DNA of 41,911 nt, taken from Parasitella parasitica (taxonomy: Eukaryota > Mucoromycota > Mucoromycetes > Mucorales > Mucoraceae). The stretch is from assembly GCA_025201805.1 (NCBI GenBank), contig MU619348.1, positions 66,927 to 108,837 of the forward strand, given 5' to 3'. Of this stretch, positions 24,985-30,563 are shown piece after piece. The notes under the pieces were generated by a model that saw only the letters and a list, made by a program, of their open reading frames with translations, was not told the origin of the DNA and did not search any database. The position numbers and the translations under genes were made by a program. Position 1 is the first letter of the stretch. Every line of letters starts with the position of its first letter.

Positions 24985-27029
24985 CTAAAATCGAGTGAAA
25001 ATGCCTTTTGTCAGCCGTAATTTGAGAATAACCAGAATTATGCCACCTATGAGATAGGTAACACCAGTAAACATCTTGTATACTCGATAAGGCTCAGCAT
25101 GAGCTCCAGATTCAATAGCGCTTGCGATACTGATACCAAAGATAGCAATGATATTAAATAACAACAACATCGACACAGCTGTGGGGTATTGAGCAGGTGT
25201 GACAATTGCAGCAGTGATAGGTGTCACTATCCCAACGTGTTGGTAAATGATTTGTAATAAAAAAAATAAAATGAAACTTACTCATAGCAAAATACGAGCC
25301 ACAAAAGAGGCCAAACAAGGTACAAAACGCAATTAACACACCATAGCTATTTGCGAAATTCCAAACAAGCAAAGAGCTTAAAGAAGAGCCAAATGTAAAG
25401 ATGATATCCGCGTTTAATCTGCCTATACGATCACCAATAAAACTACGTAAGAAACACGTTAGCATTCCTCCCCACTGCAAAAGGTACATAAGCATACCCC
25501 ACCAAGATACGGCCAACAAAGTTAGCCGCAGACATAATAGCAATCAAGGTCGACCCCTGTGTAGCTGAAAACCCTAGATAAGTGGCATTTGCAGGGACGA
25601 AAAAGTAGGGTATAAAAAAGCCCATTAAACCAATGACAGAACCGCAGCACCAAAGCAAGTAGTTGGTATCTTTCAGCACGCTCATTTCAAAAATATCTCT
25701 CAATGAACGTTTGCCCTTATTCCTTTTAGACGTCTTCTTTTCCTTGATAAAGATACAAGCAATGATATCACAGAATAAACAAATGAATCCCAAGATGCGA
25801 AATGTCCATGCGATGCCGAGGTTATTATTGATGGCCGTAATTATAAAGGGTAAAACAAGCCCGCCGATTCCAGAGCCACCAGAGGCAAGACCTAATGCAA
25901 GGCCTCTTCGTTTGTCGAACCACAAAGGCGCAGTGCTCATAGCAGTCTATGCAAAACAGTGTGAGCTATATGGTTGCTTTAAATGCATGTTAAACACGCT
26001 ACCACATAAAGAAAAGAAGCACCAGAGCCAAAGAGGACTCCCTGTGTCAAATACAGCTGCCATATTTCTGTGCTCAAACTAGCCAATTCGAGCCCCAATG
26101 TTGCTAATAGAGTGCCAATGATCAAAACTGCCTTTATACCGAAGCGAGAGGCAATGATCTGAGATAAAGGACCCATCAAATTAACACAGACTTCCAAGAT
26201 TGTGCCCACAAAGCTCAATTGAAATTGTGAATTGGCAACGCGATCTCGAAACATGTTCACATCCAAGTAATCCTGCAAAATACCTAACATTTCATAGAAA
26301 TGCGTTTATAAAAAAAGAAATAATACGCAATTGCAAACATGAGATATCACCTTCTTTTTTTTTTTGTTTGAAAAGAAAATACATACCCCTTTTCAATGTG
26401 AAAAAAAAAAAGAGTTTGAAGAAATATAACGTTAGCAAACTCGTATCTAAAAAAAAAGCATTGTTTTGCGAGAAGGGAATACAAGGAGACTTTTAAGAGG
26501 TTGTATTCTCTTCTCTTATGCCTATCGACTGCCAACGGAACCGACCAAACGCTATGAAAACGAACAAAAAAAGTCTCATACAATATCGATAGTGTGAGTG
26601 CGTCAACTTACCAGCATGAAGCAGTGCCAAAGCTAGTAACTTGGACCATGAATGTCCCGATAATCACGAGCCAACCATAACCACCATCCAAGTCGCTGTC
26701 AACTGTAGATGTTTGTTTGTTGACTCCATTTTCGGGATCATTGCATTTGAGTTCTGATATATAGACAAAGATAAAAAAATATAATGAAAGGTTAGATGTC
26801 TTGGTACTATATGCGTGCGGAAGTACTTTCAAATGAGGGTATCGAGGGTATACTTACGGTATTCATGGTCAGTTTTGGCATCTTCGTTGCTGGCATACAC
26901 TACTTCATCTGGCAAGATTGTAGGCACAGAAGAGTTTTGTTTCTCATTGACTGAGGAAAAAATCGTAGCATGCTCATCTTGCATCTCATCAAGTGAAATG
27001 GCAGGCTTGATACCGTGGATTGAAGACAT
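24985..27029 (-). CDS. MFS monocarboxylate-porter-like transporter
   Basis: Exons 27029-26858, 26753-26612, a proposed 2-nt exon 26388-26387, 26283-26003, 25946-25498, 25442-25282 and 25226-24985 give 482 residues. After a polar N-terminus of about 70 residues comes the monocarboxylate-porter start motif DGGYGWLVIIGTFMVQ and then SFGTASCWGILQDYL, which exists only if the micro-exon (or another exon of 3n+2 nt) is included. Further landmarks: GSGASFLYVTAMSTAPLWFD, KRRGLALGLASGGSGIGGLV, and ANFVGRILVGFIGDRIGRLN (the conserved loop between TM8 and TM9). Twelve membrane spans are expected. Relatives are the fungal Mch/MCT transporters; the substrate is not readable from the sequence. All other introns are 46-104 nt GT-AG with matching phases. 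Confidence 0.82.
26387..26388 (-). other. Candidate 2-nt micro-exon (GG)
   Basis: Exon 2 ends ...TCATGCTG/GTAAGT and the next long exon starts TTAG/GTATTTTGCAG. Direct joining gives a -1 shift and loses the conserved protein. Inside the intervening 328 nt, AAAAG/GG/GTATGT supplies exactly two G and restores TGC TGG GGT ATT TTG (C-W-G-I-L). Upstream are a GCTAAC branch consensus (26436-26431) and a T-rich tract; downstream is another T-rich tract before the TTAG acceptor. A competing 38-nt exon (26388-26351, ending ...GAAG/GTGATA) also keeps the frame but inserts a Lys-rich segment after TM1. Confidence 0.5.
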
Positions 27030-27347: not shown

Positions 27348-28023
27348 ACCTTTCCATCAAATTACAGTGGTGTAAAAAGCAATACCCTAAAGGCTAACAT
27401 ATCCTTCTTTTGTTTTGATTTCCTTTCTCTTTTCCTCATCCACACATCAAATCAGCATGGTGTTTACAACCTATAAAACAAAAACACACATCGCCGGCAT
27501 AAAAAGCCAATATAAATACTGAAAGTGGCTTCAAGGATATCTCAACCAAGATTGACTACTTCAGCTTTGCCAAGCTGATTCCCAAGTCTAAAGTAGCCAC
27601 AAACTTTCTGTACCAAAATTTGCTCACAAAGCTGTCAAAAAAACCAAAACTTCAAAGTGATGACCATTGCTCAAAAAGCCAATTCCATTTCAAAATAAAC
27701 ATTGGCTGTTAATTTAGTCTTTTTGACAGCTTTGTGAGCAAATCCTGATACAGAAGGTTTGTGGTTACTTTGGACTTCAAAACCAGCTTAGCAAAGCTGA
27801 AGTAGCCAAGGTCTGGTTTGTATCGGTTGAGATGTCCTTGAAGCCACTTTCAGTATTTATATTGACTTTTTATGCCGGCGATGCGTGATTTTGTTTATAG
27901 GTAGTAAACACCACGCTGATTTGATGTGTGGATGAGGAAAAGAGAAAGAAAATCAAAATAAAAGAAGGATATGTTAGCTTTTAGGGTGTTGCTTCATACG
28001 CTGTAACTTGATGGGAAGGGTGC
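27348..28023. mobile_element. Foldback/MITE-like element with 300-bp inverted arms
   Basis: Left arm about 27348-27643 and right arm about 27717-28023 are inverted copies of each other, with a roughly 73-nt loop. By eye identity is about 85-90% with few gaps; blocks such as TTTGCTCACAAAGCTGTCAA and CATCGCCGGCATAAAAAG are shared in opposite orientation. No frame of any length is conserved between arms, and no transposase is encoded. Near the outer edges the sequences read TTACAGTG...(left) and ...CGCTGTAA (right), so ends of the type TA-CAG, as in Tc1/mariner-derived MITEs, are possible. However, similarity continues about 18 bp outward to CACC(C)TT(T)CCATCAA, so true ends and the target duplication are unresolved. 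Confidence 0.8.
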
Positions 28024-28977: not shown

Positions 28978-30563
28978 TTACTTTATATAGGCTTTCAATC
29001 CCTTAAGACGGTCCGCAGCTTCTTCTAGAACTTGGTCCGTCTTGCAGAAAGCAAAACGCGCAAAGTGAGCAGCTAAAGGCCAATGTTCTCTCTCATAGAA
29101 TTCAGATGGAGGGATCGCACAGACACCAATTTGCTTTGTTAACCAGTAACACATTTTGAAATCGGCACCACGGTCATCCAAGATTTCAGGAAACTCAAAG
29201 TCCTTGGGAATTTGAATCTTGCTAGTGTTGACCAAAATATAGTAAGCACCTTCAGGTATAGTGTAAGGTAAATTCAATTCATCAAATATTTTTCTCAGAA
29301 TGGACCTCTTGTGCAAATAATGGTCAATCTGATTCTGAAAAATAGGCTCAATCAAAGCACTCTCAAGGCCAGCAGCTACAGCTTCTTGACAAGGAGAATT
29401 GACACAGAAAACAACTCGGGTCTGGGCAGCAAATGCGTGCTTAATCAAATGCTCAGGGCCAATTAGCCATCCGACACGCCATCCTGTAGCGGCAAAGGAT
29501 TTGCCGCCAGAACCAACAGTGATAGTGCGCTCCCAAAGATCATCAATATTGGCAATTCTGGGGAATTTGTTAAGAGGAGGATAATAAAGACGATCATAGA
29601 CTTCGTCTGACAAAATGACTAGATTGTGTTCCGCGGCAACTCGACCGATGGCACGCAGCTCGTCTTCGTCAAATACCTTGCCAATAGGATTATGAGGTGT
29701 ATTGAGAACAATCATCTTTGTCTTGGATGTAATTTTGGACTTGAGTTCGTTAATATCCAATGTCCATTCATGAGAGGAAATAACACGGTCAGCAGCATCG
29801 GCAGGGGGCCTAAGAGGAACATAGACAGGCTTTCCACCATTCATGGTGATATTGGGCTATAAATCACACTTATGTGAGATTGTATCCATTATTTCCAAAG
29901 TTCAACACTCACAATATACTGATCAAAGAAAGGCTCCATACAGATAACTTCGTCTCCAGCATCCAAAAATCCTGCAAATGTCGCATACATACCTGGTTTT
30001 TGGAAGCCTCGTATCAATATTCCGCGCTGTACAAGATGTCTCGAGTCATACTGTACCTTCATTAGCTCCTGCTGTTACTAAAATCTCAGTTTCAGGGTCT
30101 AATGTGCGATTGAATTGGCCACTGTACGAAGCAGCCAAAGCATTTCTCAATCTAGGACGACCACGGGGATGGCTTTACAATATAAAGGTCAGTCATTAGA
30201 GGGGGGGGATTATCTTGTCCCAATCTACATGTACCTGTATTGGTTGGCTTCAATGACGTCGAGAGCTTCTTTGGCAGCATTTTGAACAATGGCAGGAGGA
30301 CCAAAGCTATGTGAGCAGAGATTAGTCTCATTTGCCTGATAAACAACGCGTTCGTATACAAATAACTTACTTCATATATCCTTGGCCCAAGTTAATAGCC
30401 TTTGTTTCCAATGCAAGGGGAGTAAAGATGGACCAAACTGATGACATTGATTTAGTTGTCATGATACACAAACATACATACACATTCGCAGAACCTTACC
30501 ATCTCTACCAAAATGAGATACACGTTCGGCAGGCTTAATTTGCTGAGGACTACTAGTTGACAT
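28978..30563 (-). CDS. Kynurenine/glutamine aminotransferase (class I/II PLP)
   Basis: Six exons (30563-30500, 30437-30371, 30306-30235, 30172-30057, 29992-29913, 29856-28978) give 425 residues, the normal size for this family. Landmarks: WSIFTPLALETKAINLGQGY, FGPPAIVQNAA, YSHPRGRPRLRNALA, TAGANEGMYATFAGFLD-GDE, the substrate/cofactor loop NTPHNPIGKVF, LSDEVYDRLYY with the PLP Asp, and the Schiff-base Lys in GSGGKSFAATGWRVGW (about Lys252). This is the KAT/CCBL (yeast Bna3) group, which transaminates kynurenine to kynurenic acid, and some members also act on glutamine or cysteine conjugates; specificity cannot be fixed from sequence. The first ATG in frame is 30563. The open frame extends upstream to 30725 and reads like a mitochondrial presequence, but has no ATG. 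Confidence 0.9.

Follow-up and report, generated by a model that had tools for sequence, protein, structure and literature searches.

In the fungus Parasitella parasitica (Mucorales), a gene for an MFS transporter very probably contains a constitutive coding exon of two nucleotides, GG (positions 26388-26387, minus strand), which, as judged from DNA and protein sequence, would lie between two introns of the ordinary GT-AG type, 223 and 103 nt long. Positions are counted in the window, by which we mean the whole stretch of 41,911 nt that was analysed (contig MU619348.1 of assembly GCA_025201805.1, positions 66,927 to 108,837 of the forward strand). With exons of 1-2 nt, one can probe how small an exon the spliceosome is still able to recognize. 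Six genes that have the same 2-nt exon but diverged introns, together with a relative that has only one of the two introns, make the order of splicing and the birth of an exon testable in one organism.

The Transporter Gene and Its Product

The gene lies on the minus strand from 27029 to 24985. In the gene model, exons of 172, 142, 2, 281, 449, 161 and 242 nt are separated by introns of 104, 223, 103, 56, 55 and 55 nt, all with GT-AG ends. Exon 1 with the start codon (26858..27029) is followed by a GTAAGT donor, and exon 2 (26612..26753) encodes a segment from DGGYGW to SFGTASC and ends with the TG of a Trp codon. The upstream intron (26389..26611, GTAAGT..AAAAG) is followed by the putative exon GG (26387..26388), which has counterparts in five paralogues, and the downstream intron (26284..26386, GTATGT..GTTAG) by exon 3 (26003..26283), which opens with the GT of a Gly codon so as to read GILQDYL. 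Exon 4 (25498..25946), exon 5 (25282..25442) and exon 6 with the stop codon (24985..25226), all on the same strand, complete the model.

With GG included the product has 482 aa and matches Pfam MFS_1 at 1.7e-40. A profile made from ten relatives, with the region of exon 2 included, matches the structures of monocarboxylate transporters (MCT8, MCT10, MCT1 and MCT2) over most of its length with E-values down to 8e-50, and the [DE]GGxGW motif, which marks the start of the first transmembrane segment in monocarboxylate porters, is found as DGGYGW in exon 2. The product can thus be classified by its sequence as an MCT-like MFS transporter of the monocarboxylate porter family. In the alignment with MCT8, only the Gly of the Trp-Gly pair discussed below is common, since MCT8 has VG there. 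A deposited Parasitella protein, P0001, agrees with our model from exon 3 to the end and is 100% identical to it over the 78% of the model that it covers; its start codon, an ATG, lies among the final bases of the gap between exons 2 and 3 (MLGILQ). A search of the whole window with Rfam at the gathering threshold gave 0 matches.

The Joint between Exons 2 and 3

Exon 2 ends with TGCTG at 26612 and exon 3 begins with GTATTTTG at 26283, so that a gap of 328 nt (26611..26284) lies between them on the minus strand, just as an earlier note on this DNA had placed it. Exon 2 must end at TG because in-frame read-through meets TGG TAA at once. If the canonical GT and AG of the gap are joined directly, the frame is shifted, the product reads SCWYFAGLLG and a stop is reached after 138 aa in all; direct joining was rejected for this frameshift, which the earlier note had also seen. 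Addition of GG at the joint gives the 482-aa protein with CWGILQDYL. The pattern AG-NN-GT occurs exactly once in the gap, with GG as NN (26388-26387), and the other elements that the earlier note had described around it are likewise there: a branch-like CTAAC, 47 nt from the 3′ end of the upstream intron, a T-run between CTAAC and that end, and GTATGT as the donor after GG. The simple pattern used for branch sites found nothing like CTAAC in the downstream intron.

How often would such a site arise by chance? When the window gap alone was shuffled with its dinucleotides kept, AGGGGT at a distance of 40 nt or more from the start and 35 nt or more from the end of the gap appeared in 1.1% of the shuffles, and thus the single gene by itself is only suggestive. 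AGGGGT is absent from all four other introns of the gene. As for a transposon inside the 223-nt upstream intron, a genome search with the intron matched only its own place and gave this idea no support.

Paralogues in the Same Genome

In the 30.7-Mb genome (232 contigs), a protein search gave 29 matches on 11 contigs, and two more searches with P0030 and P0110 as queries added no contig. In six loci, C112 (the gene in the window), C179, C130, C167, C60 and C82, the TG of the Trp codon is followed by an intron and the GT of the Gly codon is preceded by the end of one, and the six share the anatomy TG/gt..ag/GG/gt..ag/GT. In this order, their upstream introns measure 223, 59, 83, 95, 86 and 66 nt and their downstream introns 103, 50, 75, 143, 58 and 79 nt. 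Each of the six gaps contains exactly one AGGGGT; in all six genes the canonical joining without GG shifts the frame, and the internal AG/GG/GT restores both the frame and the motif WG[IV][LM]Q. The earlier note had taken a real 2-nt exon as the best reading of the one gene, and this reading is strengthened by AG/GG/GT at the same codons in every Parasitella gene that was found to have the upstream intron. Conservation of the exon is seen here among paralogues of one genome; across species it is seen indirectly.

Multiplied together, the six shuffle frequencies for AGGGGT give 6e-14, a figure that treats as independent six introns that are homologous and only partly so. From the density of AGGGGT in the window (7 in 2 x 41,911 nt), 0.09 occurrences are expected in the gaps against 6 seen (Poisson 9e-10). 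When the gaps were compared with each other by local alignment (15 pairs), the z-values against letter shuffles ranged from -0.3 to 3.1, with eight pairs at 2 or above; since the gaps hardly align and score only slightly above shuffles, a general similarity of the introns does not explain AGGGGT. The exact CTAAC is present in two of the six upstream introns and in one of the six downstream introns.

Other paralogues need no such exon. C43 has a single 65-nt intron at the downstream position (TGGG/GTAAAC..ATAG/GC) and no AGGGGT, while TGGGG is uninterrupted at the joint in C16, C78 and C28. All four read Trp-Gly, by which the conservation of this pair is demonstrated independently of the micro-exon. 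In the paralogue C10 (L016), the stretch upstream of the transporter consists of Ns and the joint is unreadable. For C179 and C130 the GG joint predicts SWGVMQ, and precisely this is read in P0020 and P0030, respectively, two proteins deposited for Parasitella; P0020 is 100% identical to C179 over 375 residues, and P0030, at 97-98% identity to C130 where the exons match well, may come from another assembly or strain.

Other Readings of the Joint

The same mRNA and the same protein would also result from a single non-canonical intron of 326 nt with TA..TA ends (26610..26285, TGCTGG/taagtt..tgtta/GGTATT). The bases fit this reading exactly, as a G follows exon 2 and a G precedes exon 3, and the geometry is the same in all six genes. 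Thus, cDNA reads across the finished joint cannot by themselves separate the TA..TA intron from the micro-exon, and the read TGCTG-GG-GTATTTTG, which the earlier note had proposed as the decisive test, loses that role. What separates the two readings, indirectly and at the level of sequence, is the conserved internal AG/GG/GT: a TA..TA intron leaves unexplained why gaps that can hardly be aligned contain one AGGGGT each in six of six cases, for all the rarity of this in shuffles, and GTAA donors and AG acceptors at their normal places would be a coincidence. To our knowledge, introns with TA..TA ends do not form a recognized class among spliceosomal introns. We give this reading a slim chance.

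The earlier note regarded as the main competitor a longer cryptic exon with the same acceptor, for example one of 38 nt (26388..26351) that would add 12 residues. This exon is indeed open and restores the frame, but it is not the strongest rival. We listed every single insert with GT-AG borders that restores an open frame and leaves both introns at least 35 nt long, and found 8, 1, 2, 5, 1 and 4 of them in C112, C179, C130, C167, C60 and C82. The 38-nt exon is one of the eight in the window gap, GG being another, and it has no counterpart in the paralogues; the only insert length available in all six genes is 2 nt. C82 has a second candidate of 2 nt, TC, which gives Cys-Arg for Trp-Gly and does not restore the motif. 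Moreover, the 38-nt exon would put GMYFLFKQKKKE, with four lysines among its 12 residues, into transmembrane helix 1 beside the conserved Trp-Gly, and its donor, GTGATA, looks weaker than GTATGT. A longer exon of this kind is very improbable.

No more credible is an error of the assembly or a pseudogene, by which the frame of the window copy would be wrongly assembled or truly broken. The assembly is a draft with long homopolymers in introns, and P0001 starts inside the gap, but the same phase problem of 2 nt recurs at five other loci, and all other exons of the window gene are open and joined in frame. Equally remote are stwintrons, nested introns known in fungi from which, according to the portions of the literature considered here, two introns are removed in order: a [D1,2] stwintron needs an internal AG followed by T, so as to rebuild the external G^T, while AG is followed by GGGT in six of six genes, and a stwintron would leave no bases behind where two are needed.

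How Two Introns May Be Spliced around GG

Under the micro-exon reading, GG would complete the Trp codon (TG/G) and open the Gly codon (G/GT) of a conserved pair in transmembrane helix 1. In the predicted structure of the relative P0002 (mean pLDDT 76), Trp116-Gly117 is located at a break between the helices 94-114 and 116-127, which together would correspond to the first transmembrane segment. GG cannot drift, because Trp is encoded only by TGG and Gly codons always begin with G, and G also suits both splice sites. As skipping of GG shifts the frame in all six genes, a working protein can be made only if GG is included constitutively.

The 3′ site of the upstream intron (AG) and the U1 site of the downstream intron (GGG/GTATGT) would share a base. 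Thus, the two sites cannot be occupied at once, and we infer that the introns are removed successively, probably by intron definition and in a manner similar to recursive splicing. Either order is possible, since the second donor is preceded by GGG at -3 to -1 whether or not the first intron has already been removed. If the upstream intron is removed first, the half-spliced RNA would read TGCTG joined to GGGTATGT with the downstream intron kept; if the downstream intron is removed first, it would read AAAAGGG joined to GTATTTTG.

Deposited Relatives

Can an exon of this size be overlooked by gene finders? Joints were classified in the best 120 of the 273 relatives from a first protein search. 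Trp-Gly is intact in 32 of the 120, 37 start at or after the joint, and 51 have the N-terminus but are broken there; by a stricter test, which compared six residues on each side, 33 are clean, 59 have gaps or inserts and 28 are without the region. When 14 of the 120 that were found only in sources marked lgn or jgi are left out, the 106 deposited proteins listed comprise 30 intact ones, 26 late starts and 50 broken ones, so that 76 of the 106 are cut short or wrongly joined in transmembrane helix 1, which affects the annotation of transporters across Mucorales. N-terminal exons are often badly annotated in any case, and this weakens the weight of the 76. At three other conserved joints, 115, 120 and 118 of the best 120 are clean. 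The joint of exons 1 and 2 was also considered as a control and was rejected, as it is clean in 8 of 120 only and the N-terminus is not conserved. By name, the deposited relatives are Mucorales except Umbelopsis P0112, with several species, and probably some genes, represented more than once. It is to be added that Trp-Gly is invariant in the 10 proteins of set A1 and in the 32 intact proteins partly as a result of selection, because they were chosen for it.

Broken models that read SFG/VMQ or S/VMQ look, from their residues, as if a gene finder had moved the donor back to an in-frame GT and had joined it at AG/GTNATG. Probably, the 2-nt exon is the reason for the errors that many database versions of related transporters show at this joint. 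P0026 (462 aa, contig of 1556 nt) and P0035 (476 aa, longest contig 1632 nt) are encoded by uninterrupted open reading frames that read SSWGVMQ; they look like assembled transcripts, or, alternatively, may be intron-free copies of the gene. Two further protein searches (30 and 13 matches) gave no full-length transcript-like match to the orthologue of the window gene, and a pattern search for DNA of other species, with 65 matches in viral contigs and 109 in genome contigs, gave none that was confirmed. Another relative, P0122, reads SSWG-RLFRLQKRDSWLIHPLT-GVMQ; it looks as though some 54 nt of in-frame intron had remained unspliced at the downstream position while an upstream intron was missing, and the protein perhaps represents a lineage that lost the upstream intron.

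Origin of the Micro-exon

A FastTree phylogeny of 138 sequences was built from exon 3 onward and rooted on C28; eight Parasitella loci in it were pieced together from tblastn matches. The six micro-exon genes and other Mucorales proteins form one clade (0.975), Umbelopsis P0112 comes next (0.966) and C43 is outside, while several inner nodes are weak (e.g., 0.27). In the simplest history, the downstream phase-1 intron would be the older one, and the second intron would have entered later, 2 nt upstream of it, in the ancestor of the clade. Thus the micro-exon was probably born by intron gain 2 nt upstream of an older intron, as the single-intron paralogue C43 suggests. We infer that it is ancestral to the family of paralogues, and the pattern of mis-modelled proteins points to its presence in other Mucorales. 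Taken as a whole, the following picture is one to which we incline with some reserve: one 2-nt exon arose once in the ancestor of the Mucorales transporter family, was kept through duplication and speciation, is still constitutive in this large family across the order by obligatory stepwise splicing, and corrupts a large share of deposited models. In P0112, the deposited protein of the outgroup Umbelopsis isabellina, the joint carries an unusual insert (SCGKWRSVMQ).

Comparison with Known Ultra-small Exons

Ultra-small exons are already known as a kind. Exons of 2-5 bp are stated, in the portion of the report considered, to be known in Arabidopsis, Drosophila and humans (PMC12940212). The closest case in that portion was published in February 2026 together with RNA reads and concerns cytochrome P450 genes of Fusarium, CYP621A, with an exon of 1 nt: as in Parasitella, an ultra-small exon made only of G (there AGGGT) lies inside a conserved motif (there PKG), the apparent intron is abnormally long, the arrangement is kept across related genes, and deposited models are wrong at the joint (PMC12940212). 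As far as that portion goes, the Fusarium exon has 1 nt, is found in orthologues of Fusarium species and is supported by RNA reads, while the Parasitella exon has 2 nt, is found in paralogues of one genome, and probably in an order, and is known here from DNA and protein sequence; the single-intron paralogue of Parasitella additionally hints at the order of intron gain.

In plants, conserved 1-nt exons with wide mis-annotation are described in APC11 and VPS55 (PMC8831610). According to the parts of the reports considered, these exons of Arabidopsis and other plants resemble the present one in that they are constitutive, too small for exon definition, mis-annotated, and accompanied by intronless relatives, while they differ in being of plants, of 1 nt and experimentally verified, the Parasitella exon being fungal, of 2 nt and sequence-based (PMC4674806; PMC8831610). 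For the Arabidopsis 1-nt exon, a model that combines intron definition with recursive splicing has been proposed, and in its outline this model fits what we suppose for Parasitella (PMC4674806). Recursive splice sites, or zero-nt exons, are similar, as treated in the same source, in that a 5′ site is used directly after a 3′ site in a stepwise way, but they leave no bases, while in Parasitella two coding bases would stay in the mRNA (PMC4674806).

Our search for 2-nt exons, with most subscription journals outside its scope, found none, and no count of microexons in Mucorales was found; within the literature searched, we met with no 2-nt exon common to six paralogues of one fungal genome. The Parasitella micro-exon appears unusually old and common to several paralogues.

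The Surroundings of the Gene

Just upstream of the transporter gene, at about 27377-27971 of the window, there is an imperfect palindrome of roughly 595 nt, whose reverse complement matches it at 82%; the genome search listed no second location for it. The transporter gene is adjoined by an open reading frame of 292 aa (28978-29856, minus strand), which, by the look of its sequence, we take to encode a class I aminotransferase.
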